Assembly (NCBI GenBank): GCA_902363665.1
Contig: CABJAW010000009.1
Location: 1 to 64,000, forward strand
Source: Lachnospiraceae bacterium
GTDB taxonomy: Bacteria; Bacillota; Clostridia; Lachnospirales; Lachnospiraceae
Length of the DNA: 64,000 nt
Direction: 5' to 3'
Shown here: piece by piece, positions 9,539 to 58,372 of the stretch
How positions within the stretch are numbered: the stretch's first letter is position 1
How the letters are laid out: each line of letters starts with the position of its first letter
Translations under genes and position numbers: made by a program
The notes under the pieces: generated by a model
What the model saw: only the letters and a program-made list of their open reading frames with translations
Databases searched by the model: none
Told to the model about the DNA's origin: nothing

Positions 9539-10602
9539 GTTTTGAACAAATGCTGGAAGAATCATTCAAAACAATTCATAATGGAGAGGTAGTCGAAGGC
9601 ACTGTTATTGATGTCAAAGAAGATGAAATCATCTTGAACATTGGATATAAGGCTGACGGTATCATTACCAGAAGCGAATATACAAATGATTCTAATGCAG
9701 ACCTTCGCGAGCTTGTCCATACTGGTGACAAGATGGAAGCAAAGGTTTTAAAGGTAAATGACGGAGATGGTCAGGTGCTTCTTACCTATAAGCGTCTTGC
9801 TGCTGAGAAGGGCAATAAGAGACTGGAAGAGGCATTCAACACACAGGAAGTTCTGAAAGCACCGGTCGTACAGGTACTGACAGGCGGTCTGAGCGTTGTT
9901 GTTGACGAGGCAAGAGTATTCATCCCGGCAAGCCTTGTTTCTGATACTTACGAGAAGAATCTTGAGAAGTATGCAGGACAGGAGATCGAATTTGTGATCA
10001 CAGAGTTCAATCCGCGCAGAAGAAGAATCATCGGCGACCGCAAGCAGCTTCTTGTAGCAAAGAAAGCTGAGATGCAGAAAGAGCTCTTTGAGAGAATCCA
10101 CGTTGGTGATGTGGTAGAAGGTGTTGTAAAGAATGTTACTGATTTCGGTGCATTCATCGACCTTGGCGGTGCAGATGGACTGCTTCACATCTCTGAGATG
10201 TCCTGGGGTCATGTTGAGAACCCGAAGAAAGTATTTAAGGTAGGCGAGAAGCTGAAAGTCCTGATCAAAGATATCAATGGCGACAAGATCGCTCTGAGCC
10301 TGAAATTTGAGGATCAGAATCCGTGGCTTACCGCAGCAGACAAGTATGCAGCAGGCAGCGTAGTAGAAGGCCGTGTAGCAAGAATGACCGACTTCGGTGC
10401 ATTCGTTGAGCTTGAGCCGGGTGTAGACGCTCTGCTTCATGTATCCCAGATCTCCCGTGAGCACGTTGAGAAGCCGTCCGACATCCTGAAAGTTGGCCAG
10501 GTGATCACTGCTAAGGTAGTAGATTTCAACGGCGAGGATAAGAAGATCAGCCTGAGCATGAAGGCTCTTGAGAACCAGGCTCCGGCAGAGGACGAGGAGT
10601 AA
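9526..10602 (+). CDS. rpsA: S1 RNA-binding domain protein (ribosomal protein S1-like)
   Basis: A 358-residue protein with four S1 (OB-fold) repeats: about 17-87, 103-170, 191-259 and 277-347. Repeats 3 and 4 carry the classical DFGAF(I/V) and LLH(I/V)S motifs. It is shorter than the six-repeat E. coli S1, as usual in Firmicutes, and should bind mRNA during translation. GGAGG lies inside the end of ispH, 10 bases before the ATG, and the two frames overlap by 13 bases. A strong terminator follows. Confidence 0.93.
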   Translation: MSDLSFEQMLEESFKTIHNGEVVEGTVIDVKEDEIILNIGYKADGIITRSEYTNDSNADLRELVHTGDKMEAKVLKVNDGDGQVLLTYKRLAAEKGNKRLEEAFNTQEVLKAPVVQVLTGGLSVVVDEARVFIPASLVSDTYEKNLEKYAGQEIEFVITEFNPRRRRIIGDRKQLLVAKKAEMQKELFERIHVGDVVEGVVKNVTDFGAFIDLGGADGLLHISEMSWGHVENPKKVFKVGEKLKVLIKDINGDKIALSLKFEDQNPWLTAADKYAAGSVVEGRVARMTDFGAFVELEPGVDALLHVSQISREHVEKPSDILKVGQVITAKVVDFNGEDKKISLSMKALENQAPAEDEE

Positions 10603-10650
10603 TTCTTTCTCCTGGTCAGATCCGAGAATAAAATAATCAAAACATACAGA

Positions 10651-10682
10651 AGGGCTTCCGGAAAATTTCCGGAAGCCCTTTT
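10651..10682 (+). terminator. Terminator of the cmk-ispH-rpsA group
   Basis: Perfect stem AGGGCTTCCGGAAA/TTTCCGGAAGCCCT followed by TTTT. Confidence 0.92.
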
Positions 10683-10717
10683 CTGACACTGTAAATGTTT
10701 GTTTTGAACGACAGGTC

Positions 10718-10867
10718 GCGAAGCGACTGCGTTCATGAAATATCATAAGGGGAGCCCGCTTGCGGAATCTTGTAAGGAGGGATCCGTTTACGGGAGGATT
10801 CCTTACGAGCCTGGATTCCTTATGATCCTACAAGTAGCGAAGCGGATTGGAATGTCCGTTTTACATC
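10718..10867. repeat. Nested palindromes plus a dispersed-repeat copy
   Basis: CATAAGGGGAGCC...TTCCTTATG arms (about 10744-10825) enclose a second stem, TAAGGAGGGATCC...GGAGGATTCCTTA (about 10772-10806), related to the post-tmRNA palindromes. A copy of the AAGCGGAT...ATCCGCTT family with changes in the right arm follows at 10839-10862. The block separates S1 from the convergent rnfB. Confidence 0.75.
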
Positions 10868-10888
10868 AAAGAAGTTGTCTTTGGAAAA

Positions 10889-11686
10889 TTAGCTCACATC
10901 TTTCTTTCGGATAACACCCGCCGGGCATTTCTCCGCACATTTTCCACATTTTGTACATTTCTCATAATCGATATGAGCCACGTTATTTTCAACGGTGATT
11001 GCGCCGGATTCGCACTGTTTTTCACACAGCTTGCAGGCGAGACAGCCGGCCTTGCAGACTTTCTTAACTGCGGCACCGCGGTCGTGGCTGGAGCAGCGTA
11101 CCGCATAGACGGCAGATTCCGGGACGAGCTCGATCAGGTGCCGCGGACAGGCAGCAACACATTTTCCACAGGCCTTGCATTTGGAACGGTCCACGCTTGC
11201 AACACCCTGATTGACGGTAATTGCACCGAACGGACAAGCGGAAGCACAGGTGCCAAAGCCGATACAGCCATAGTCGCAGGTCCACGGGGAAAGCCCGCTG
11301 CTGGCAGCGGAAGCGCAGTCGTGGATGCCGACGTAACGGCATCTGGCTGCTGCATTTTCGCAGTCGCCGGAGCATTTGACATAAGCGGCGACTTTTTCTG
11401 TTTTTTCCATCTGAAGGCCGAGCAGACGGCTGATCTTTTCTGCGACAGGATCACCGCCGACCGGACAGGCATTTACCGGTGCTTCCTGATTTGCAATAGC
11501 TGATGCAAGCGCATCACATCCGGCATAACCGCAGCCGCCGCAATTGTTGCCCGGCAGGCATTCGCGGATCGCTACCTGTTTCTCATCTACTTCTACTTTA
11601 AATTTTTTATCGACTGTGACCAGCAGAATGCCGATCAGCATGCCAATGACAGCCACAGCAAGTGTGGCAACAATGATTGATGACAT
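10889..11686 (-). CDS. rnfB: Rnf complex subunit B (Fe-S protein)
   Basis: Electron-input subunit of the ion-translocating ferredoxin:NAD+ oxidoreductase. The 265 residues comprise an N-terminal membrane anchor (about 5-25) and the RnfB-type cluster region CLPGNNCGGCGYAGCDAL. Ferredoxin-like cysteine motifs follow: CDYGCIGFGTCASACP, CKACGKCVAACP, CLACKLCEKQC and CTKCGKCAEKCP. This is the extended multi-cluster form found in Clostridia. It is the last gene of the minus-strand operon, 73 bases after rnfA. Its reading frame ends within 25 bases of a dispersed repeat. Confidence 0.96.
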   Translation of the reverse strand: MSSIIVATLAVAVIGMLIGILLVTVDKKFKVEVDEKQVAIRECLPGNNCGGCGYAGCDALASAIANQEAPVNACPVGGDPVAEKISRLLGLQMEKTEKVAAYVKCSGDCENAAARCRYVGIHDCASAASSGLSPWTCDYGCIGFGTCASACPFGAITVNQGVASVDRSKCKACGKCVAACPRHLIELVPESAVYAVRCSSHDRGAAVKKVCKAGCLACKLCEKQCESGAITVENNVAHIDYEKCTKCGKCAEKCPAGVIRKKDVS

Positions 11687-11759
11687 AAGTACCTCCTATC
11701 CTGGATTTCGCGTTAGTGAGAACGGAAATCAGTTCCGCCCTCAGCCGCAAACCATTCGC

Positions 11760-12350
11760 TTACAGTGACAGTCCGGCAAATCCCATGAATGCGATGGACA
11801 TCAGGGCTGCGGACAGAAGTACGACAGGGGCACCGCGGAACGGAAGCGGAACACTTGCTTCATCGATTCGTTCGCGGATGCCGGCAAGCAGTACGATCGA
11901 GATCGTGTAGCCGACTGCCGTACCGAAACCTGCAGTCACACTCTGAATGAAATTGTAACCGTCCTGCACGTTGGTCAGAGCGACACCGAGCACGGCGCAG
12001 TTGGTAGTGATCAGAGGTAGATAGATTCCAAGCGCATTGTAGATCGCCGGTGAAGTCTTTTTCAGGAACATCTCAACGATCTGTACGAGCGCTGCAATGA
12101 CGAGAATAAAGACAATGGTTTCCAGGTATTCCAGGTGCAGCGGAACCAGCAGGAAATCGTACAGCAGGCTGGCTACGCCTGAAGAAAGTGTGATAACAAA
12201 GATAACGGCTACTCCAAGACTTAAGGAAGTCTTGATCTGTTTGGAAACGCCGAGGAAGGAGCAGATTCCGAGAAACTGACTCAGTACGACGTTGTTGACG
12301 AGAGCCGTGGTAATGATGATCAGGATCAATGATGTATTCATATGGCTCAT
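11760..12350 (-). CDS. rnfA: Rnf complex subunit A
   Basis: Integral membrane subunit, 196 residues, with six hydrophobic helices. It has the RnfA/NqrE signatures NNVVLSQFLGICSFLGVS near residue 20 and LPLITTNCAVLGVAL near residue 105, containing the conserved cysteines thought to hold a membrane [2Fe-2S] centre. Together with RnfE it forms the inverted pseudo-symmetric membrane pair. It overlaps the end of rnfE by 4 bases. Confidence 0.96.
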   Translation of the reverse strand: MSHMNTSLILIIITTALVNNVVLSQFLGICSFLGVSKQIKTSLSLGVAVIFVITLSSGVASLLYDFLLVPLHLEYLETIVFILVIAALVQIVEMFLKKTSPAIYNALGIYLPLITTNCAVLGVALTNVQDGYNFIQSVTAGFGTAVGYTISIVLLAGIRERIDEASVPLPFRGAPVVLLSAALMSIAFMGFAGLSL

Positions 12351-13024
12351 CCCTCCTTATTCTCATTCTGGCAGCCGGATTTGCTGCAGTGGTTGCAACA
12401 GCCGTCACAGCCCTTGATAAGGTCTGCAGAATTGTTCTTGATATGTAAGGCATTCATGACTGCGATAATCAGCGCGATGACGAGAAATGCGCCGGGAGCC
12501 TTTACAAAGATTGCGATCGGTGATACGGATTCCGGAAGGATAGAAAGTCCGAAGAGTTTTCCTGAGCCGAGCAGTTCACGGATCATGCCGATCAGAGTCA
12601 GTGCAACCGTAAAGCCAAGACCCATTCCAAGCCCGTCGAAAAGTGCAAGTCCCGGTCCGACCTTGTTTGCATAAGCTTCTGCACGGCCGAGAATGATGCA
12701 GTTTACGACGATCAGCGGGATGTAAATGCCAAGCGAAGCGTACAGCCCGGGAGCGTATGCCTGAAGCAGCAGATCAACAACTGTAACGAGAGAAGCTACA
12801 ATGACGATGTAAGCCGGAAGGCGTACCTGATCCGGAATGATCTTCCGCATCAGAGAGATGATTAGGTTGGAAAAGATCAGAACCGCAAGGGTGGAAAGCC
12901 CCATGCCGATTCCGTTGATGGCGGAGGTGGTGACAGCCAGAGTCGGACACATGCCGAGCATCAGGACAAGGCTGGGATTTTCCTTCACCACGCCGTTGTA
13001 AAGTCGTTCTACATATTTATTCAT
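12347..13024 (-). CDS. rnfE: Rnf complex subunit E
   Basis: Membrane subunit of 225 residues, homologous to RnfA. Visible signatures are NPSLVLMLGMCPTLAVT near residue 16 and YIPLIVVNCIILGRAEAYA near residue 105, with the conserved Cys pair. The C-terminus has an extra Cys-rich tail (CDGCCNHCSKSGC), which is not part of the core and could bind metal. It lies 15 bases after the rnfD-rnfG gene and overlaps rnfA by 4 bases. Confidence 0.95.
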   Translation of the reverse strand: MNKYVERLYNGVVKENPSLVLMLGMCPTLAVTTSAINGIGMGLSTLAVLIFSNLIISLMRKIIPDQVRLPAYIVIVASLVTVVDLLLQAYAPGLYASLGIYIPLIVVNCIILGRAEAYANKVGPGLALFDGLGMGLGFTVALTLIGMIRELLGSGKLFGLSILPESVSPIAIFVKAPGAFLVIALIIAVMNALHIKNNSADLIKGCDGCCNHCSKSGCQNENKEG

Positions 13025-13038
13025 AGTCTGTCCCCTCC

Positions 13039-14577
13039 TTATTGGATTGACGATGCATAGAAAGCAAGCGCAGTGTTGACTGCATTTACAACAGCACCGG
13101 AAGAGGTCGATGCGCCGGAGACGGAGTCGATCTCATTGTCTGTGGTGGAGCCGCCGGCCTTGTTTAAAGTAAATGCGTCGGTATTGACTCCTGCAAACTG
13201 ACTGCGGAATGCATCCTCGCCGCAGAGCATACCCATACCGGCCGTCTCATGCAGCTCAGTGAAGGAGATGCCGAGTACGGTGCCTTCTGTGTCAAGCCCG
13301 ACGGAGAGTGTGATGGTTCCATCATATCCGTCACCGCTGGAGACGCTGATGACGTATCCGACGGTCGCATCCGAAGCGTCTTTTCCAACCATGACGCTGT
13401 TGATATAGGTCTTGCCGAATTTCTCGTCGTAAATGTCGCCTCCGAGGGCTTCGATCTTTGCATTGATCGTGTCGTCAGTCACAAAGGTTTCTGCATCCGG
13501 GCAGACTTCTTTGTAGGAAGCTGCATTTGCAGCAAGCTTCTGCTCGTCGATTTTATCCCTGGTCAGGACATAAACACTGCTGAGTGCAAGTCCGGCACAC
13601 AGGGTGATGATCGTCAGGTTGACAGCAGCCTTTGGAAACTGTGGCTTTCCGGATGCGGCGCGATAGCCGAGCGGTTTCGGGACAGAAATCTTATCGATAA
13701 ACGGAACGACCATATTTGCGATGATGATTGCATAGCTGACGGAATCGGCAGAGCTTCCATAGACACGGAAGAGCCCGGCAAGAATACCAGTGATCGCGCC
13801 GTAAAGCAGCTGGCCGCGGGAAGTGACCGGGCTGGTGACCGGATCGGTCGCCATAAAGAAAGCACCCATCAGTACACCGCCGCCGCAGATATGGATCAGC
13901 AGATAATTCGGATCAAAGCCATGTCCGCCGAAGAGTCCCATAAATACAGCAAACGCAGCCACAAAAGCAGCCGGGATCTCGATCGTGATGCCTCCGGTGA
14001 TCAGCAGGAAGATCCCACCGATCAGAAGGGCAACTGCACTTCCGCCGATCACGCCGGCCGTGTAACCGAGTGCAGTCTGGGAAAGACTTACAGCTTCACC
14101 GGCACGCAGTGCGGCAAGCGGGGTAGCAGAACTCATGCCGTCGACAGAGAAATTTGTCATGGCACTTCCGAAGGAGATCAGCAAAAAGCAGCGTCCGGTC
14201 AGAGCCGGGTTCATGAAGTTCTTGCCGAGTCCGCCGAAAAAGCATTTGACAAACAGAATTGCGAAGACGGATCCAAGACACGGAAGGTAGAGAGGTACGG
14301 CCGGGGAGAGCGAAAGGCCCAGGAGCAGGCCGGTAACAACAGCGCTGCCGTCCTTGACCGTCATTGGCTTTCTGGCTGCTTTGTCATAGAGAAATTCCGT
14401 AGCTACTGCGGAAGCGACACTGATCAGCAGGATCAGAAAAGCATGGATGCCGTAGCGGTAAATGCCGAACACGGCAGCCGGAAGCAAAGCCAGTACCACA
14501 TCGGTCATCACAGCGCCGGTGGTCAGGCGATGACGGATGTGAGGACTGGAAGACATGTTCAGTAGTTTTTCATTCAT
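13039..14577 (-). CDS. Fused Rnf subunits D and G
   Basis: One 512-residue frame contains RnfD (about 1-310) followed by RnfG (about 325-512). The RnfD part has many membrane helices and the flavinylation motif DGMSSATPL with the FMN-accepting Thr at about 152. The RnfG part has one membrane helix (AAVNLTIITLCAGLALSSVYVL), a periplasmic-type domain with GYVISVSSGDGYDG, and a C-terminal DSVSGASTSS in which the FMN acceptor would be Ser at about 490 instead of the usual Thr. The junction (KPLGYRAASGKPQFPK) has no stop or frameshift. I use the ATG at 14577, preceded by GAGGGA; a GTG at 14592 overlaps the rnfC stop. rnfD and rnfG are normally separate genes. Confidence 0.93.
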   Translation of the reverse strand: MNEKLLNMSSSPHIRHRLTTGAVMTDVVLALLPAAVFGIYRYGIHAFLILLISVASAVATEFLYDKAARKPMTVKDGSAVVTGLLLGLSLSPAVPLYLPCLGSVFAILFVKCFFGGLGKNFMNPALTGRCFLLISFGSAMTNFSVDGMSSATPLAALRAGEAVSLSQTALGYTAGVIGGSAVALLIGGIFLLITGGITIEIPAAFVAAFAVFMGLFGGHGFDPNYLLIHICGGGVLMGAFFMATDPVTSPVTSRGQLLYGAITGILAGLFRVYGSSADSVSYAIIIANMVVPFIDKISVPKPLGYRAASGKPQFPKAAVNLTIITLCAGLALSSVYVLTRDKIDEQKLAANAASYKEVCPDAETFVTDDTINAKIEALGGDIYDEKFGKTYINSVMVGKDASDATVGYVISVSSGDGYDGTITLSVGLDTEGTVLGISFTELHETAGMGMLCGEDAFRSQFAGVNTDAFTLNKAGGSTTDNEIDSVSGASTSSGAVVNAVNTALAFYASSIQ

Positions 14578-14588
14578 TTTCCGTTCCC

Positions 14589-15923
14589 TCACTTTCTTTT
14601 TGCGGCCATGATCGAGGCTTTCGTCTGTTTGAACAGCTGCATCAGCGGGCGCTTGGCCGGGCAGATGTAGGTGCAGGAACCACAGGCAATGCAGTCCAGC
14701 CCGTACAGCTTTTTCTCGTATCGTTCATAATCCTTTCGCTCGGCGGCCTCAGCCATCATCTGCGGTACAAGACCGATCGGACAGACGTGGCCGCAGCGGC
14801 CGCAGCGCAGGCAGGCAGTCATCTGATTTTCAGCGAGTTCAACTTCATCCTCCGCGAGAACCGTCAGTGCATTGTTGTTCTTGGCGATCGGGACATCGAG
14901 TGTCGACATGGCAATTCCCATCATTGGACCGCCGCAGAGAATCTTTTTGGCGGTACATTCCGGTTTGATGCCGCCTGCTGCCTCAAGCAGTTCCCTGCAG
15001 GAAGTGCCGATCCGTACTTCCATCGTGTGTGGTTTTACAACGGCGTCACCGGATACGGTAAAGAGACGGGTCATCAGAGGTTCTGATTTACAGACTGCGC
15101 GGTAGATGGCGTTTAAGGAACTGACGTTGCAGACGACACAGCCCAGATCTGCCGGAAGCTGTCCGAAACGCAGCTGTCTTCCGGTGACAACGCCGATCAG
15201 GTTTCGTTCGCCGCCTTCCGGGTATTTTGCTTTCACTTCAAGTACAGAAATATTGGAATCGGAAGCGCAGGCCTTTGTCATGGCTGCGATTGCCTCTGGT
15301 TTGTTGTCTTCGATGGCGATTACGCCTTTTGCATTTGGAAAGAGCCGCAGTACCAGCCGCATACCTTCCACGATTCCGTCGCTTCTGGTGCGCATCAGCT
15401 GGTCGTCGCAGGTAATGTAAGGTTCACATTCAGAGCCGTTTGCAATGACGTAATCAATTTGCTCCGGATTACGCGGGGCAAGTTTTACGTGGGTTGGAAA
15501 TCCGGCGCCGCCAAGACCGACGATACCGGCTGCCTTGATCGCATCCAGAATCTGCGGGCCGCTCATTGAGGTGTCATCATGTTCTGTGCCGACACCCGGG
15601 GCGAGGGTAAATAATCCGTCATTCTCGATGACAATGCAGGTGGCTCTGCCGCCGTTTACCGTGTGCCGTTCCTCAATGGCTTTTACTTTGCCGGAGCAGG
15701 AACTGATGATGTTTGCGGATACGAAGCCGTCCGCCTCGGCGATCAGCTGGCCGGCAAGAACGGGATCCCCCTTTTTTACAACTGGCTTTGCTGGTTTTCC
15801 AATGTGCTGGTTGACCGGGAAGACAAGCTCTCCTTTGGGGAGAAATTCTTCGATCGGACAATCTTTGGAGAGGTCTTTGTGTCCGTCTGGATGGACGCCT
15901 CCCCGAAACGTTTTGTGACTCAT
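14589..15923 (-). CDS. rnfC: Rnf complex subunit C
   Basis: Peripheral NADH/flavin-binding subunit, 444 residues, first gene of the operon. An N-terminal barrel-sandwich region (PAKPVVKKGDPVLAGQLIAEADGFVSA) precedes the Rossmann-like GLGGAGFPTHVKL motif near residue 140. The C-terminal part carries two [4Fe-4S] motifs, CLRCGRCGHVCP and CIACGSCTYICP. A good GGAGG site lies 8 bases before the ATG. The order C-DG-E-A-B, all minus strand, is that of clostridial rnf operons. Confidence 0.97.
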   Translation of the reverse strand: MSHKTFRGGVHPDGHKDLSKDCPIEEFLPKGELVFPVNQHIGKPAKPVVKKGDPVLAGQLIAEADGFVSANIISSCSGKVKAIEERHTVNGGRATCIVIENDGLFTLAPGVGTEHDDTSMSGPQILDAIKAAGIVGLGGAGFPTHVKLAPRNPEQIDYVIANGSECEPYITCDDQLMRTRSDGIVEGMRLVLRLFPNAKGVIAIEDNKPEAIAAMTKACASDSNISVLEVKAKYPEGGERNLIGVVTGRQLRFGQLPADLGCVVCNVSSLNAIYRAVCKSEPLMTRLFTVSGDAVVKPHTMEVRIGTSCRELLEAAGGIKPECTAKKILCGGPMMGIAMSTLDVPIAKNNNALTVLAEDEVELAENQMTACLRCGRCGHVCPIGLVPQMMAEAAERKDYERYEKKLYGLDCIACGSCTYICPAKRPLMQLFKQTKASIMAAKRK

Positions 15924-16283
15924 ACGATACCTCCTGTTTGATTGTCATATCTCGTCTGCAGGGGAGCGGAGAACCTCATAATCAGGGTATCCGGCGACTG
16001 CAGAGGGCGGTTATTTCCCTGCATAAGGAGAAACCATCCCTTATGAGCCTGGGTGGGCTTCCTTATGATTTTGCGGATAACGGACATAGATGGTAAATAT
16101 CCGGTCAGCGCAAAATGAAATAAATAATCGATTAAGAAAATCATATCAGATACGAGCCTGAAAATCCAGCTTTTTTCACAAAGAAATACGTTAAAAAAAT
16201 AACTGTTTTGTTAATTAATACACATACATATGAGAAGTTAGAAAAAAGAGTTCCTGGAAATGCAATAAAAAGAGAGATTTTTT
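15924..16283. other. rnf upstream region with palindromes, no gene
   Basis: Contains an imperfect palindrome at about 16021-16070 (CATAAGGAG...CTTCCTTATG) of the same style as those near tmRNA and at 10744-10825, and an AT-rich stretch at about 16106-16290. A TTAACAA half site (minus strand, 16208-16214) resembles half a Rex operator, but the other half is poor. The rnf promoter must be here; I could not place its -35/-10 with confidence. Confidence 0.5.
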
Positions 16284-17510
16284 TTATGAAAAAAATCTCT
16301 GAAAACAGCACTGCACAAGTGGATGAAGAAGATCTGGCTGATGAGAAAAATTCTCACTGTACTCAAAAAAGTGAGCTTTTGCATCAAAGGAAGCGCGAAA
16401 ATCAGGAGAGAGAAGTGGCTGCGGCTGCCAGTAAAAAATGTCGGATTTTCGCGTATAGCAGGTCGCTGCTTTTGCAGGAACGCGATATTCCTTATCAATA
16501 TAGGAGGCAACGCTTTTATGGATTGCCTGATCTTCGAGCGGAAGATAGCAGTAATTTTTGTAATCCGGGAAAAAATACTTCAGTTCACACGGGAAACCGG
16601 GGAAACGAAGCACAGCTGTAGAATTTTTAACGATCATATCGCATACGCAGCTGCAGGAAACGGCAGGATCGTCAGAAAAGTGCGAAAGAGAGAGTGGAGT
16701 GGGCAGTGGAGCCCGCAGCTGAATCGTTACCTCAAGAGACGGGACGGCATCTTTTTCATCGGAGCGGAGAAAACAAGAGCGCACATCGATAAAATCGCCG
16801 TCCGCAAGCATACAGTAAGCTGCGAGGGGGAGAAGATTTGTCATGCCCACCAGATCGTCATGGTTGTGGAGCAGCATCAGCTGAAGCAGCTCCTGATCCT
16901 GCGTCTTGTCGAAGGAACGGAACATGGCAGCCATATGTTTTCCGCTTAGGGTATCGGTGCGCTGCCATCCGGCAAGCTTTTCAAGTGCAGACTGTTTCAA
17001 ACTTGTCTGTCCGGGGAGATGCCGCAGGACGGAGAGTGTGCGGTAGAGGTCGAGGGAGTTTTTTTCTGCTGCTGTAAAGGGATGTGTGGAAAACGGAACA
17101 TGCGCTGCACCAGAAGTTTGGCAGGCGGATTTCTCAGCGGATTGCCTGCCGGAAGATTTGCCGGAGACACCATGCAGAGAAATCCCCGTCAGTTCATAGG
17201 CGTTTGCTTTTGCGTTTAAAAATGGCACATCAAAGGTAGAACCATTAAAATGAATGAGCGTATCATACGGCGCTGCGTCTGACAAAAAAGTCTCGAGCAG
17301 CTGTTTTTCCTCGGCGGCATGCTCTGCAAGATACTGGGTGAGCTGCCAGCTGCCGTTTTCGAGATGAATCGTCCCGATCAGAAAGACACAGGCGGATTTG
17401 TGGGAGAGGCCTGTTGTCTCGATATCAAAAAAGAGTGCTTTTTCCGGCGTGTAGCCGTAAAATTCATGAAAGTCCGGGAAATCCGGAAGTACAGAGGTTG
17501 TTTTTATCAT
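16284..17510 (-). CDS. YprB-like ribonuclease H-fold protein
   Basis: A predicted 3'-5' exonuclease-like protein of about 408 residues (Pfam RNase_H_2 type). The N-terminal half carries exonuclease motif I FFDIETTGL, motif II HFNGSTFDVPFL and the C-terminal HNHDDLVGM with catalytic acids. The C-terminal half (about 250-408) matches no domain I recognise. I chose the ATG at 17510 because AAAGGA precedes it; the frame continues 38 codons upstream without family-like sequence. Its cellular substrate is unknown. Confidence 0.8.
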   Translation of the reverse strand: MIKTTSVLPDFPDFHEFYGYTPEKALFFDIETTGLSHKSACVFLIGTIHLENGSWQLTQYLAEHAAEEKQLLETFLSDAAPYDTLIHFNGSTFDVPFLNAKANAYELTGISLHGVSGKSSGRQSAEKSACQTSGAAHVPFSTHPFTAAEKNSLDLYRTLSVLRHLPGQTSLKQSALEKLAGWQRTDTLSGKHMAAMFRSFDKTQDQELLQLMLLHNHDDLVGMTNLLPLAAYCMLADGDFIDVRSCFLRSDEKDAVPSLEVTIQLRAPLPTPLSLSHFSDDPAVSCSCVCDMIVKNSTAVLRFPGFPCELKYFFPDYKNYCYLPLEDQAIHKSVASYIDKEYRVPAKAATCYTRKSDIFYWQPQPLLSPDFRASFDAKAHFFEYSENFSHQPDLLHPLVQCCFQRFFS

Positions 17511-17914
17511 AAGAAATCCTTTCTGCCGAAATAGTATGCCAGGGAAGCATTTGCCTGCTGCCGTTTCAGGAATAAGTGATGTAGCATAGAGCAAAGTCGA
17601 ATATTTGTTTTGCTTTTGCTTCATAAGAAATTGTGTCTTGTAAAACAGAAACGCTTTGTGATCAGGATTTTTTGTATCATCGCTGTTCAGTATAATAGAA
17701 ATAGTAGAAAAAATCCAGCTATTGAAATCTGGCGAGGAGGCTGATAAATCATAAAAAGCGATACTTTCGATTTTAAAAACTTAAGGTTTTCTTCCGTTGT
17801 GCCCGTGTAAAAGGCAGTGTAAAATAACAGGCAGAATATATTTTGGAACGTGGTGACGAAAGCGAATTGCAAAGGTTCGCTTTACTATGTGCCAGGAAAG
17901 GAAGGAGCATACAG
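17511..17914. other. Divergent intergenic region, no gene
   Basis: Separates the minus-strand YprB gene from the plus-strand ABC ATPase. It holds a TATAAT at 17691-17696 without a clear -35, a CCAGC/GCTGG-like imperfect hairpin around 17715-17750, and a degenerate copy of the dispersed palindrome (GAAAGCGAATTGCAAAGGTTCGCTT, in part, at 17857-17882) just before the ATPase ribosome binding site. Confidence 0.4.
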
Positions 17915-18604
17915 ATGCTGCTTGAGTGCAGAAATTTAAAAAAGAATTATGGAAAGAAGCAGGCAGTCCGGAATATTACGCTGAATCTGGAGCGTGGGAA
18001 AATTTATGGTCTGCTCGGACCGAACGGAAGCGGAAAGACAACATGGATGAAAATGACGGCCGGACTGGTAAAAGGCTGGGAGGGATCGATTTCTTTTGAG
18101 GGTCATCCGCTTTCTTATCACGATAAGGCAGAAATTGCCTATATGTCGACAGAGCCATTCTTCTATTCTTATATGAAGATAGCGGATGTCGGAAAGTATT
18201 ACCGGGACTTTTTTAAGGATTTCGATGAAGAGCGCTTTGGAGAACTGCTGGAGCGGATGGATTTAAGCCCGTCGGATAAGGCACGGACGCTTTCCTCTGG
18301 TATGGCGGCGAAACTGAAGCTCGCGGCCACTCTGGCGAGGAATGCAAAGCTGTATCTTCTGGATGAGCCGCTCAATGGAATTGATCTGGTCGCAAGAGAT
18401 CATGTGATGCAGACCATCATGGAGACCAGGGGAGAAGGAAATACGATCGTGATGTCCACCCATCTGGTCGATGAGATCGATCAGGTGATTGACGATGCGA
18501 TCTTTGTACGGGAAGGACAGATCGAGCTGCAGGGAAATACAAGGCAGCTTTGCGGGGATTATGGCATGTCGATTCCGGATCTGTACCGGAAGATATACGG
18601 GTAA
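17915..18604 (+). CDS. ABC transporter ATP-binding protein
   Basis: A 229-residue nucleotide-binding subunit. Walker A GPNGSGKTT at about 37, signature LSSGMAAKLKLAATLARN near 128, Walker B LYLLDEPLNGID near 150, and the switch His in STHLVDEID. The ATG at 17915 follows GGAAGGAG; the frame upstream is only repeat sequence. It pairs with the membrane protein at 18786 and resembles YtrB/EcsA-type exporters of small peptides or lantibiotics, but the substrate is not evident. Confidence 0.9.
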   Translation: MLLECRNLKKNYGKKQAVRNITLNLERGKIYGLLGPNGSGKTTWMKMTAGLVKGWEGSISFEGHPLSYHDKAEIAYMSTEPFFYSYMKIADVGKYYRDFFKDFDEERFGELLERMDLSPSDKARTLSSGMAAKLKLAATLARNAKLYLLDEPLNGIDLVARDHVMQTIMETRGEGNTIVMSTHLVDEIDQVIDDAIFVREGQIELQGNTRQLCGDYGMSIPDLYRKIYG

Positions 18605-18785
18605 AAGTACAGAAAAAATGTCAAGCTTTAACAGAGCCAGCTAGGTCGTGAGGAGGATTAGGAATATCAGCCTGAATGGCTGGCGATATATGGTGAAAAG
18701 CAGAAAATAGAAACGTAAATAAGCTGCGCAGGCGGCGGGTACCGCAAAAAACAGATGGGAATATGCTGCGGAGAATCGAGGAAAA

Positions 18786-19538
18786 ATGGGAAAGATATTG
18801 AGATATGAATGGAAGAAACAATTGTTTTCAAAGCTGATAATTGGCGGAATCCTGATTGTTCTGACGGCGGCTTTTGTTGTCGGAACGATGCTGGAAAAAG
18901 AACGCTGGCAGATGACGGCGATGGTGCTTCTCGTGTTTGCAGGGCTTTTCGGTTCCTTATACGTTGGGATTGAGAGCCTTCTGGTGCTGAACCGGGATCT
19001 TCGGACGAAGGAGAGCCATATGCTTTTCATGGTGCCGTATTCAGCATGGAGTATACTTGGCGCGAAGGTTCTGGCGGCGTTTCTGCAGATCGTGCTGACA
19101 TCCGTGCTGTTTGCTGTTTCGTTTTTTCTCTGCTTTACCGCTTACGTTGGAGCGAGCCAGGGGTTTGCGCAGTTCTTTCCGATGCTGCAGCGACTTCTGC
19201 GGGAGTGGTTTGACTTCCAGCTTGACTGGAAATGGATCGTGCTGATTCTCTGTGAGGTACTGATCAGCTGGATGAATATGATTGGGGCCGGGTATGCGTC
19301 GATTATCGCGTCCCGTACGGTACTGGTAAAGAGCAGGCTTGCAACACCTCTGGCAATCATTTTGTTCTTATTTTTGAATTGGGGGATGAACCAGATCATC
19401 CACTTGGTGGCGAAAGCACTTCAGCTGTCAAATGAATCTTACGCGTATGCACTGACGAATCTTGGAATCTCGGCAGTATTCACGGTCGTGCTGCTTTTCG
19501 CGTCAGGATGGATGGCAGAGAAGAAGCTGAGCGTATAA
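18786..19538 (+). CDS. Predicted ABC transporter membrane subunit
   Basis: A 250-residue integral membrane protein with about six helices (about 18-37, 46-66, 96-120, 150-172, 186-205, 222-245). The start MGKILRYEWKKQLF is typical of ABC-2-type permeases. It has no recognisable enzyme motif. It follows the ATPase by about 180 bases in the same direction, so partnership is inferred from position. A bidirectional terminator follows. Confidence 0.7.
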   Translation: MGKILRYEWKKQLFSKLIIGGILIVLTAAFVVGTMLEKERWQMTAMVLLVFAGLFGSLYVGIESLLVLNRDLRTKESHMLFMVPYSAWSILGAKVLAAFLQIVLTSVLFAVSFFLCFTAYVGASQGFAQFFPMLQRLLREWFDFQLDWKWIVLILCEVLISWMNMIGAGYASIIASRTVLVKSRLATPLAIILFLFLNWGMNQIIHLVAKALQLSNESYAYALTNLGISAVFTVVLLFASGWMAEKKLSV

Positions 19539-19574
19539 AAACGACACATACACATATATGTATAGAAGAGATAC

Positions 19575-19612
19575 GAAAGACCTGCTGGGAAAGTCATATC
19601 AGCAGGTCTTTC
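19575..19612. terminator. Bidirectional terminator between the ABC permease and apbE
   Basis: Perfect stem GAAAGACCTGCT (19575-19586)/AGCAGGTCTTTC (19601-19612) between convergent genes. Confidence 0.75.
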
Positions 19613-19674
19613 ATATGTACTTCTTTCGGCCGGATCTTTTGGGAGTGCGCCATTTCCGAAACAAACTATCACAG

Positions 19675-20709
19675 TCACGTTGTGGCATCCGGCCATCCAG
19701 ACGATGGTTTCATCTCCAGATCATCCGTCACAAACAGTGCCTCGATACCGTCCAGTGATTCGATGAGCGCCATTCCTTTTTCAGGTCCGAGCACAAAGCA
19801 GGCGGTGCTGAGTGCGTCTCCATCGACAGAGTGTTCTGAGAAGATCGTGACGCTGGCGAGTCCGTTTTCGACGGGATGGCCATCGAAAGGACTTAAAATG
19901 TGATGATATCGTTTTCCGTTTTCGATAAAGTAGCGCTCGTAAGTACCTGAGGTGACGACGGAAGCATTTCGGCAGGAGATTGTGGTGAGCGGCTGCGTGG
20001 CATCCGGTTTTGGCGTACGGACCCCAATGCGGAAATCCTGGCCATGCGGTTTGCTTCCGATGGTAAGGATGTTTCCGCCAAGGTCGATGATACCGCTTGT
20101 ATATCCGGCGGAGACGAGATCCTCCTTTAACAGGTCGGCGATATAGCCCTTTGCGATTCCGCCGAGATCGATCGAGGTGTCAGGATCCAGGAGCGTCACG
20201 GTTGTACCGTCGAGCTGTATGTTTTTGTAGCCAACGTGAGAAAGCGCATCGATCAGATCGCTTTCATCCGGCACTGTTCCGGTTTTCTGGTCCGCATCAA
20301 AGTTCCACAGCGTGAGCACAGGGGCGATCGTGATGTCAAAGGCGCCGTCTGAGAGACGGCAGTAAGAAAGCGCTTTTTCAAGCAGATCGGCTGTTTCCGT
20401 GGAGACTTCGACCGGATTTCCATCACTGTGATTAATTCTCCACACGTCGCTGCCCTCCTGCGTGCGGGAGAACAGTTTCTCATAGGACGCAAGACGGGAA
20501 AAACACTCCTCAAGAGGGGAGGTATTTTCGGTGTCATAAAGGGTGATCGAGACGACGGTATCAAGGAAAAATCCGGTTTTGGATACGGAGGCCGTCTCTT
20601 TTTCACAGCCGGAGAGCGTTCCGGCTGCGAAGAGGAGCAGAAAAACCAGCATGGCTGACGTGATTTTGCACCTGCGGTGATTTTTTGAAGAAGTTCTGAA
20701 AAAAATCAT
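19675..20709 (-). CDS. apbE: FAD:protein FMN transferase (ApbE), lipoprotein
   Basis: Transfers FMN from FAD onto Ser/Thr of target proteins outside the membrane. The 344-residue product has an N-terminal signal with lipobox LSGC, so it should be a lipoprotein. Family motifs: DTVVSITLYD, the conserved SIDLGGIAKGYIADLL and YHHILSPFDGHPVENG, and a C-terminal VDGDALSTACFVLG region. AAAGGA lies upstream of the ATG. The Rnf subunits encoded 5 kb away carry the acceptor motifs (in RnfD and RnfG), so they are likely substrates. Confidence 0.94.
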   Translation of the reverse strand: MIFFRTSSKNHRRCKITSAMLVFLLLFAAGTLSGCEKETASVSKTGFFLDTVVSITLYDTENTSPLEECFSRLASYEKLFSRTQEGSDVWRINHSDGNPVEVSTETADLLEKALSYCRLSDGAFDITIAPVLTLWNFDADQKTGTVPDESDLIDALSHVGYKNIQLDGTTVTLLDPDTSIDLGGIAKGYIADLLKEDLVSAGYTSGIIDLGGNILTIGSKPHGQDFRIGVRTPKPDATQPLTTISCRNASVVTSGTYERYFIENGKRYHHILSPFDGHPVENGLASVTIFSEHSVDGDALSTACFVLGPEKGMALIESLDGIEALFVTDDLEMKPSSGWPDATT

Positions 20710-20928
20710 AAGCGTCCTTTCTTATTTTAACTTTTAACCGGACAGCTGTTCGGTTATGAGCAAGTAGCAAAGCGGATTGCGATTGCGTTCCCTTGGATAA
20801 ACTTTGAGGTTCACTGTAACATATTTCGAACCTCACCGCAAGTATGGAAAAATCAAACGAGTTCTTACCGGAAAAGACAGCATGCTTGCCTGAACTGAGA
20901 GAGGAATGATGAAATTTTCAAGACTTTC
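20710..20928. repeat. Truncated dispersed repeat and small inverted repeat
   Basis: A copy of the dispersed repeat (CGGTTATGAGCAAGTAGC then AAGCGGATTGCGATTGCG) at about 20751-20788 has lost its right arm. An inverted repeat TGAGGTTC (20805-20812)/GAACCTCA (20828-20835) follows; it lies upstream of both divergent genes and could be an operator. Confidence 0.55.
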
Positions 20929-20957
20929 TTTACAAAATCCGCCTTTCTTCGTATAAT
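20929..20957 (+). promoter_or_regulatory. Promoter of galE
   Basis: TTTACA (20929-20934), a 17-base spacer and TATAAT (20952-20957). Confidence 0.75.
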
Positions 20958-21019
20958 GAACGTGGCGCGGAAAGATTATGCGCAATAGATGTAGAAACAG
21001 AGGTATAGGAGGACTGGAT

Positions 21020-22036
21020 ATGGCAATTTTAGTTACGGGTGGTGCCGGATATATCGGCAGCCATACATGCGTTGAGCTGTTAAACAGCGGTTACGATGTA
21101 GTCGTAATGGACAATCTCTATAATGCCAGCGAGAAAGCACTGGAGAGGGTAGAGCAGATCACAGGAAAGAAAGTTACCTTTTATAATGTAGATATGTTGG
21201 ATAAAGAGGCAATGAATCAGATTTTCGAAAAAGAAAAAATTGATTCGGTTATTCATTTTGCAGGATACAAGGCGGTTGGCGAGTCTGTACAGAAGCCGCT
21301 GGAATATTATCACAATAATATTACCGGTACTTTAAACCTGTGCGATGTAATGCGCAATCACGGTGTAAAAAATATCATTTTCAGTTCCTCTGCGACGGTA
21401 TATGGCGATCCGGCATTTATTCCGATCACCGAGGAGTGCCCGAAGGGAAAGATTACAAACCCCTATGGACAGACAAAGGGTATGCTGGAACAGATTCTGA
21501 CAGACCTGAATGTTTCGGATCCGGAGTGGAATGTTGTACTGCTTCGTTACTTCAATCCGATCGGTGCACATAAATCCGGACTGATTGGTGAGGATCCGAA
21601 GGGAATACCGAACAATCTGCTGCCGTACATTGCACAGGTGGCAGTTGGCAAACTGGAGAAGCTTGGCGTCTTTGGCGATGATTACGATACACCGGATGGA
21701 ACGGGCGTACGTGATTACATCCATGTGGTGGATCTTGCAAGAGGCCACGTAAAGGCAATCCAGAAGCTGGAGGAGGAGCCGAAGGTACGGATTTACAACC
21801 TCGGTACCGGCCACGGCTACAGTGTACTGCAGGTACTGCACGCATTTGAGAAGGCCTGCGGCAAGACACTTCCGTATGAGATCAAGCCGCGCCGTGCCGG
21901 TGATATCGCGACATGCTACTGCGCACCGGAGAAAGCAAAGAGAGAGCTCGGCTGGGAGGCAGAGTACGGCATCGATGAGATGTGTGCAGACTCCTGGAGA
22001 TGGCAGTCCATGAATCCAAACGGATATAATGACTGA
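21020..22036 (+). CDS. galE: UDP-glucose 4-epimerase
   Basis: Interconverts UDP-glucose and UDP-galactose. The 338-residue SDR protein has the NAD-binding GGAGYIGSH at 7-15, the SSATVYG loop with catalytic Ser, YGQTK with the Tyr-x3-Lys pair near 149-153, and [10 protein letters not shown] toward the end. Length is normal. The ATG at 21020 follows AGGAGGA; the extra upstream frame lies between promoter and ribosome binding site and is not translated. It probably supplies galactose units for the cell-surface glycans. Confidence 0.97.
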
Positions 22037-51604: not shown

Positions 51605-51618
51605 AAAAGTGCAAAAAC

Positions 51619-51692
51619 TCGGGGCAACAGGATTTGAACCTGCGACCTCTCGGCCCCCAGCCGAGCGCGCTACCAAGCTACGCCATACCCCG
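51619..51692 (-). tRNA. tRNA-Pro (TGG)
   Basis: Minus strand: acceptor CGGGGTA pairs with the 3' TGCCCCG, discriminator A at 51619. The anticodon stem CTCGG/CCGAG encloses a loop with TGG; the T arm has GGTTCAAATCC. CCA is not encoded. Confidence 0.95.
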
Positions 51693-51818
51693 AAACACAT
51701 TTATTTTACTAGAGAATGATTCGTTTGTAAAGAGAAAAATGAAGAGTGCAGATTCTGTGTTTTGTGGAAGAATCTGCACTTTCTTATACGTGAAAATGAC
51801 TCCTTCTGCTCTCTCAGA

Positions 51819-58151: not shown

Positions 58152-58153
58152 GA

Positions 58154-58235
58154 TGCCGCTGGCCGGACTCGAACCGGCACGGTGTTACCCGCTTGATTTT
58201 GAGTCAAGTGCGTCTGCCAATTCCGCCACAGCGGC
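58154..58235 (-). tRNA. tRNA-Leu (CAA)
   Basis: Minus strand: acceptor GCCGCTG pairs with CAGCGGC; discriminator A at 58154. Anticodon stem CTTGA/TCAAG, loop CTCAAAA with CAA. A variable arm of class II size follows; T arm GGTTCGAGTCC. CCA is not encoded. Confidence 0.95.
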
Positions 58236-58372
58236 ACAAAATTGACACTGAAGTATCTTAACATATTTTTTCTATGGATGCAAGAAAAAAATAGAGATAA
58301 GTGGGAGAAACTTACTCATGATAGTAAGGGTGAAATTGATTACAGATATCCGGTATGCATCATCCAGTCTTA

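Follow-up and report, generated by a model that had tools for sequence, protein, structure and literature searches.

The question raised by this locus is whether a minus-strand reading frame at positions 13039-14577 of a Lachnospiraceae contig (CABJAW010000009.1; the window, that is, the whole 64,000-nucleotide stretch that was analysed) is a genuine fusion of two Rnf subunits, RnfD and RnfG, and whether the joining changes how the complex works. An earlier note had proposed that one uninterrupted frame carries a whole RnfD followed by a whole RnfG. Translation bore this out, giving 512 residues with zero internal stops, and the product was covered by the Pfam families PF03116 (residues 8-304, E = 1.3e-99) and PF04205 (residues 417-504, E = 1.2e-15). 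The window gene was confirmed as a genuine subunit fusion and not an artefact. We give a probability of roughly 0.85 to the reading that it encodes a single-chain RnfD-RnfG of an ordinary Rnf complex, derived from repeated joining of abutting genes. The features of the gene are as follows.

13039-14577, minus strand: rnfDG fusion gene, 512 amino acids (translation, Pfam and NCBIfam)
13666-14556, minus strand: RnfD domain, residues 8-304
14122-14124, minus strand: T152 codon; predicted flavin mononucleotide (FMN) acceptor in RnfD, identical across the 81 fused proteins of set A1
13600-13665, minus strand: junction, residues 305-326, without an in-frame start codon
13504-13632, minus strand: predicted long helix, residues 316-358, containing the RnfG membrane anchor (AlphaFold model)
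13042-13623, minus strand: RnfG part, residues 319-512 (TIGR01947 over 319-507, PF04205 over 417-504)
13108-13110, minus strand: S490 codon; predicted FMN acceptor in RnfG and start of a C-terminal helix (490-511)

The RnfD part passed the NCBIfam rnfD model TIGR01946 (252.7 bits; cut-off 207.05) and kept the D-x-x-[ST]-x-A-T-like FMN motif with Thr as the acceptor. Both hallmarks of RnfG were present as well, namely an N-terminal membrane helix and an FMN_bind domain with a [ST]GA[ST] acceptor, and residues 319-507 matched model positions 2-185 of 187 in TIGR01947, the best RnfG model. A single AlphaFold structure prediction was made from an input of 81 sequences; the fold of the RnfG part matches 9eri_G and 7zc6_G. 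Located by residue count, the two acceptors carried the numbers that had been claimed for them, T152 within DGMSSATPL and S490 within DSVSGASTSS.

A missed frameshift, which the earlier note had raised as a concern, was looked for at the junction. The junction was free of stops in all 80 of the best genome-contig loci, each from its own record, with five loci truncated elsewhere by contig ends; these were the best 80 of at least 568 confirmed loci, and the ranking favours full length, hence the set gives no estimate of frequency. A second set, which overlaps the first, consisted of 41 genomes, G001 (the genome of locus L001) and its nearest relatives, 34 of them with a match. All 18 full-length matches (at least 67% identity, G001 included) were fused, and two partial matches, in G350 and G359, crossed the junction without a stop; the fusion was therefore present in 20/20 close relatives whose match spans the junction. 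The match in G354 stopped at a contig edge before the junction, and 13 of the 34 genomes had a match of 50% identity or less with no fused frame listed. G001 held a single match only, namely the fusion. A sequencing or assembly error that joins two genes separate in the cell is conceivable for five genomes (of 134 with a match in the family sample described below) that carry D and G in the same frame with one stop between them, where one base error could create a fusion. The open junction in the 80 best loci and the 18 full-length relatives ruled out a frameshift or chimeric assembly, and this explanation is in practice refuted.

Selection on the junction was compared with that on the two flanking parts. 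The protein of the nearest relative, L001, was 96% identical to that of the window, and the ratio of non-synonymous to synonymous substitution rates (dN/dS) between them was 0.04 for D, 0.13 for 20 junction codons and 0.04 for G. The corresponding values were 0.09, 0.09 and 0.11 against L002, with dS well above 1, and 0.13, 0.37 (five silent and seven other changes) and 0.08 against L048. The junction is clearly less constrained than D and G, as judged from 20 codons, which are few. No in-frame ATG, GTG or TTG was present between codons 289 and 366 of the window's gene, so a separate RnfG would have no obvious start there.

The search of related Lachnospiraceae that had been suggested was carried out on 150 genomes from the GTDB family to which G001 belongs, 134 of which had a match. 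One open frame ran over D and G in 12 of the 134 (G001 included); after the five same-frame genomes mentioned above, the remaining 117 had no fused frame among the matches listed. From this sample 25 split and the 5 same-frame loci were fetched and read. Only a minority of the family has the RnfD-RnfG fusion. Among the matches listed for a class sample (196 genomes, 151 with a match), at least two of the 151 were fused, G001 itself and G240, a count that leaves out G181 and G187 (open frames of 415 and 421 amino acids). G134, which has an open frame of 593 amino acids beside its D match, was rejected as a fusion, the locus being split. A protein search limited to at least about 282 residues returned 806 matches, the best 120 of which all had both Pfam domains, and a second search with a query from another fused group returned 100, of which 70 had both. 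The fusion has already reached automatic annotation: JGI gives some of these database proteins a name that covers both the D and the G subunit, and in UniRef the Marvinbryantia formatexigens DSM 14469 protein P0196 has a name starting with 'Multifunction'. Searches of the open-licence literature in PubMed Central (PMC) turned up no description of an RnfD-RnfG fusion, and the words fused, fusion and Lachnospir are all absent from a 2025 RNF/NQR review. Within that literature the fusion is an unreported variant of a known complex, found in several separate groups and with a clade-specific acceptor change.

Fused and split loci were then placed on trees. Dropping L081-L084 (ApbE loci), L085 (which coincides with L001), L140 and L141 (where an rnfD-like gene neighbours a different FMN_bind gene; left out of the counts) and eight doubly fetched loci left 164 rows including the window, and removal of the repeats L086, L087 and L175 left 161 rows for distinct counts. 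A D+G tree was made from 64 chosen rows and then from 76, with 12 database proteins. In the 76-row tree the window's clade and a Marvinbryantia-like group together formed 26 fused rows (support 98/97). A second fused group held 12 rows including G240 (97/78), L091 and P0198 formed a fused pair (100/100), and fused L099 was nested with three split rows (100/99). The fused and split states needed four changes on this tree, three of them forced by starred branches, and a single fused clade was rejected on the 64-row tree at a cost of 74 log units (approximately unbiased test, p-AU = 0.004). The idea that the fusion might be a lineage marker therefore stood only in part: it is a trait of the window's lineage, but it is not a clean marker, because fused rows sit at several separate tree positions.

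The arrangement of the split genes suggests how such fusions may arise. Of 67 distinct split loci, 52 have a possible RnfG start positioned 0, 1, 4 or 8 bases ahead of where the rnfD stop ends, and in L092, L093 and L096 the rnfD stop was followed directly by a same-frame ATG. The distance from D-303 to G-325 had a median of 22.3 codons in split loci (n = 51) and was 26 in same-frame split loci (n = 16), 24 in the main fused clade (n = 83) and 33 in other fused loci (n = 8). Junction length varied between 21 and 48 codons, and in fused proteins it roughly equals the combined length of D tail and G head in unfused kin. In Clostridia the two genes commonly adjoin or share a few bases, and this would be the starting state; a joined chain would then result from losing the rnfD stop, if the reading frame is shared, or from an insertion or deletion of one or two bases, if the genes overlap. 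Fusion probably arose more than once, and it may have been retained since the RnfD C-terminus and the RnfG N-terminus would both be cytoplasmic and the topology would thus be unchanged.

The direction of these changes is a matter of interpretation, in that changes on a tree cannot separate gain from loss. One old fusion, later re-split in several lineages, would also agree with the small number of fused groups, and a D-only quick tree (three short rows dropped, thinned at 82% identity to 121 rows) needed three changes and forced only two. The chosen outgroup rows are split, however, and in many split kin the two genes share 1, 4 or 8 bases but are read in different frames, which speaks against re-splitting because simple fission would not create such overlaps. 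Together with the rejection of one fused clade, which alone does not exclude losses, these results make an old fusion with later fission unlikely, and repeated joining is the simplest reading.

The RnfG of the window deviates from the usual form in its acceptor, which is Ser and not Thr, as had been pointed out previously. With repeats removed, readable main-clade loci, the window among them, had Ser in 69 of 82 cases, other fused loci in one of eight (L090) and readable split loci in none of 67; before this removal the main-clade and split figures were 71 of 84 and 0 of 68. Every non-Ser RnfG acceptor read was Thr, with the residue left unread in L077, L133, L142 and L173. All of the best 120 of the 806 database proteins had Ser. 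The Ser/Thr label needed four changes on the 76-row tree, so Ser appears to have been mostly inherited and sometimes reverted or regained. Four of the five Marvinbryantia-like sister rows have Thr, the fifth being L090, and for this reason the fusion probably preceded Ser; the Thr-to-Ser change is probably later than the fusion and marks most of the window's clade. Ser as a consequence of fusion alone was rejected, given that other fused groups keep Thr, as was a shift of the acceptor to the next residue (T, I and V all occur at position 8 of the Ser motifs, and position 7 is always S). ApbE is reported to accept Ser, with replacement of Thr cutting flavinylation by 10-55% in tests cited by PMC12052999, in agreement with the statement that the motif tolerates both residues. 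A natural Thr/Ser contrast among fusions is provided by M. formatexigens DSM 14469 (Thr) and Parablautia sp. Marseille-Q6255 (Ser). The fused rnfDG gene of one locus (L062:5719-5858) contains a 30-base tandem repeat with about four copies of a D-x-x-SGAT-like motif before the true RnfG site. The repeat is without counterpart in its relative L063, and may possibly represent extra flavin sites or an assembly effect.

In Rnf of Clostridium tetanomorphum the RnfD chain ends on the cytoplasmic side, both covalent FMNs are on the extracellular side, and electron transfer is proposed to involve a swing of RnfG from one partner to another (PMC9588780). By analogy, the D-G link would lie on the cytoplasmic side and join the ends of the chains that are far from the flavins. 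Since the link would be placed in this way, and the junction is comparable to the tail and head of unfused kin, the suggestion that tethering of the two flavins changes the electron route was not supported. A single chain would hold two FMNs attached by ApbE, one on T152 of the membrane portion and the other on S490 of the extracellular portion, and the extracellular RnfG domain would still swing between the iron site of RnfA/E and the flavin of RnfD, as has been proposed for split Rnf. If the fusion brings any gain, this may be that D and G are supplied at a fixed 1:1 ratio and enter the membrane together. The natural occurrence of a D-G link in several groups points to an RnfG anchor that can stay in place while only the outer domain moves.

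Several further observations weigh against an unaltered single-chain subunit. The RnfG part scored 90 bits against TIGR01947, below the cut-off of 102; RnfG counts that rely on this model would therefore miss it, which is a warning for annotation. The window's clade (21 tree rows) lies on a long branch of 0.48, and together with the low score this makes a functional change possible. An in-frame ATG, GTG or TTG occurs near the junction in 54 of the 85 main-clade rows, which include two repeats, and in 7 of 8 other fused loci, so the start-codon argument against a separate RnfG applies just to loci that, like the window, lack one. In C. tetanomorphum the RnfG helix packs with helices of RnfB and RnfA/E (PMC9588780), and the RnfD and RnfG counterparts are reported not to be in direct contact (PMC10979944). 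A fusion that alters the electron route or ion coupling, for example by holding RnfG next to RnfD, would be in keeping with the long branch, with the switch to Ser in most of the clade and with the lowered flavinylation cited by PMC12052999. It agrees poorly with the presence of RnfC, D, E, A and B, all over their cut-offs, with a junction that by homology would be cytoplasmic and away from both flavins, and with the existence of fused groups that have a Thr acceptor, and it was judged improbable. The proposal that repeated D-G fusion and clade-wide Ser place the RnfG anchor beside RnfD, where weaker Ser flavinylation tunes occupancy and alters coupling efficiency, is equally doubtful. Cleavage of the fused protein into two chains is possible; the junction showed the weakest constraint in two of the three dN/dS comparisons that could be read and varies in length. 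A protein that is cut once inserted in the membrane and then functions as two subunits was nevertheless considered very improbable, and a single chain with an unchanged electron route is preferred.

Comparison with known systems placed the window's complex close to those of C. tetanomorphum (7ZC6) and Acetobacterium woodii (9ERI), which have the same subunits. The RnfD part was 40-42% identical to their RnfD over the structure alignment, with the acceptor Thr conserved. D and G are separate chains in those complexes and one chain in the window, and the RnfG acceptor is Thr164 in C. tetanomorphum (PMC9588780) but Ser in the window. The C-D-G-E-A-B order is also found in many rnf operons, such as that of Fusobacterium (PMC10790702). 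BRYFOR_05342 of M. formatexigens DSM 14469 (P0196) has PF03116 and PF04205 in one chain, like the window, and is a member of the group that is sister to the window's clade (joint support 98/97); its RnfG acceptor is Thr (QALSGAT), in contrast to the window's Ser. Nqr/Rnf-like two-subunit systems likewise have an RnfD-like membrane domain in a composite protein, but there it lacks the flavinylation Thr and is joined to a nicotinamide adenine dinucleotide (NAD)-binding domain and not to RnfG (PMC8238504, PMC10979944).

Other composite proteins were noted during the searches. P0186 (446 amino acids) is an RnfG-RnfE fusion in which adjacent rnf genes are joined as in the window but the pair is different; both parts were over the NCBIfam subfamily cut-offs, and this type was seen as one protein, with one member on one contig, among the 100 matches of the second search. 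In another fused group, P0147 and P0149 have long low-complexity N-terminal extensions, the longest in P0149, P0147 also has a C-terminal one, and L169 (read as L116), also a fused protein of that group, has a long charged linker between D and G. P0155, P0156 and P0158, from the search with another fused RnfG, are long proteins that pair FMN_bind with PF03544.

The fused gene belongs to a five-gene operon on the minus strand in the order rnfC, rnfDG, rnfE, rnfA, rnfB, that is, C-D-G-E-A-B with D and G joined. The neighbouring features are listed here.

14589-15923, minus strand: rnfC (TIGR01945, 505 bits, above cut-off)
12347-13024, minus strand: rnfE, with a Cys-rich C-terminal tail (TIGR01948, above cut-off)
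11760-12350, minus strand: rnfA (TIGR01943, above cut-off)
10889-11686, minus strand: rnfB (TIGR01944, above cut-off)
10650-10680, minus strand: terminator-like stem of 14 pairs after rnfB (consensus match only)
19675-20709, minus strand: apbE, flavin adenine dinucleotide (FAD):protein FMN transferase family (PF02424, 301.9 bits; cut-off 25.6)

From its sequence the complex is otherwise predicted to be an ordinary Rnf, a ferredoxin:NAD+ oxidoreductase and ion pump, with flavinylation and ion transport. The ApbE encoded at 19675-20709 is the likely enzyme for both FMN acceptors; it was below the narrow NCBIfam equivalog cut-off (132 versus 498), and a PF02424 match was present in 4/4 fused relatives searched. 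Rfam gave zero matches across 10000-21500, and a plasmid search also gave zero matches.

The C-terminal Cys-rich tail of the window's RnfE reads GCDGCCNHCSKSGC. The tail had at least four Cys in every one of the 81 main-clade fused rows read, a number that includes two repeats, and at least three in all 8 other fused rows; among 66 split rows, 34 had at least four and 26 had none. One narrow literature search found nothing on such a tail, and a metal or Fe-S site would be a guess. Elsewhere in the window are a tmRNA gene with the tag AEDNLAYAA at 775-1111 on the plus strand and two tRNA genes, at 51618-51693 and 58152-58236.
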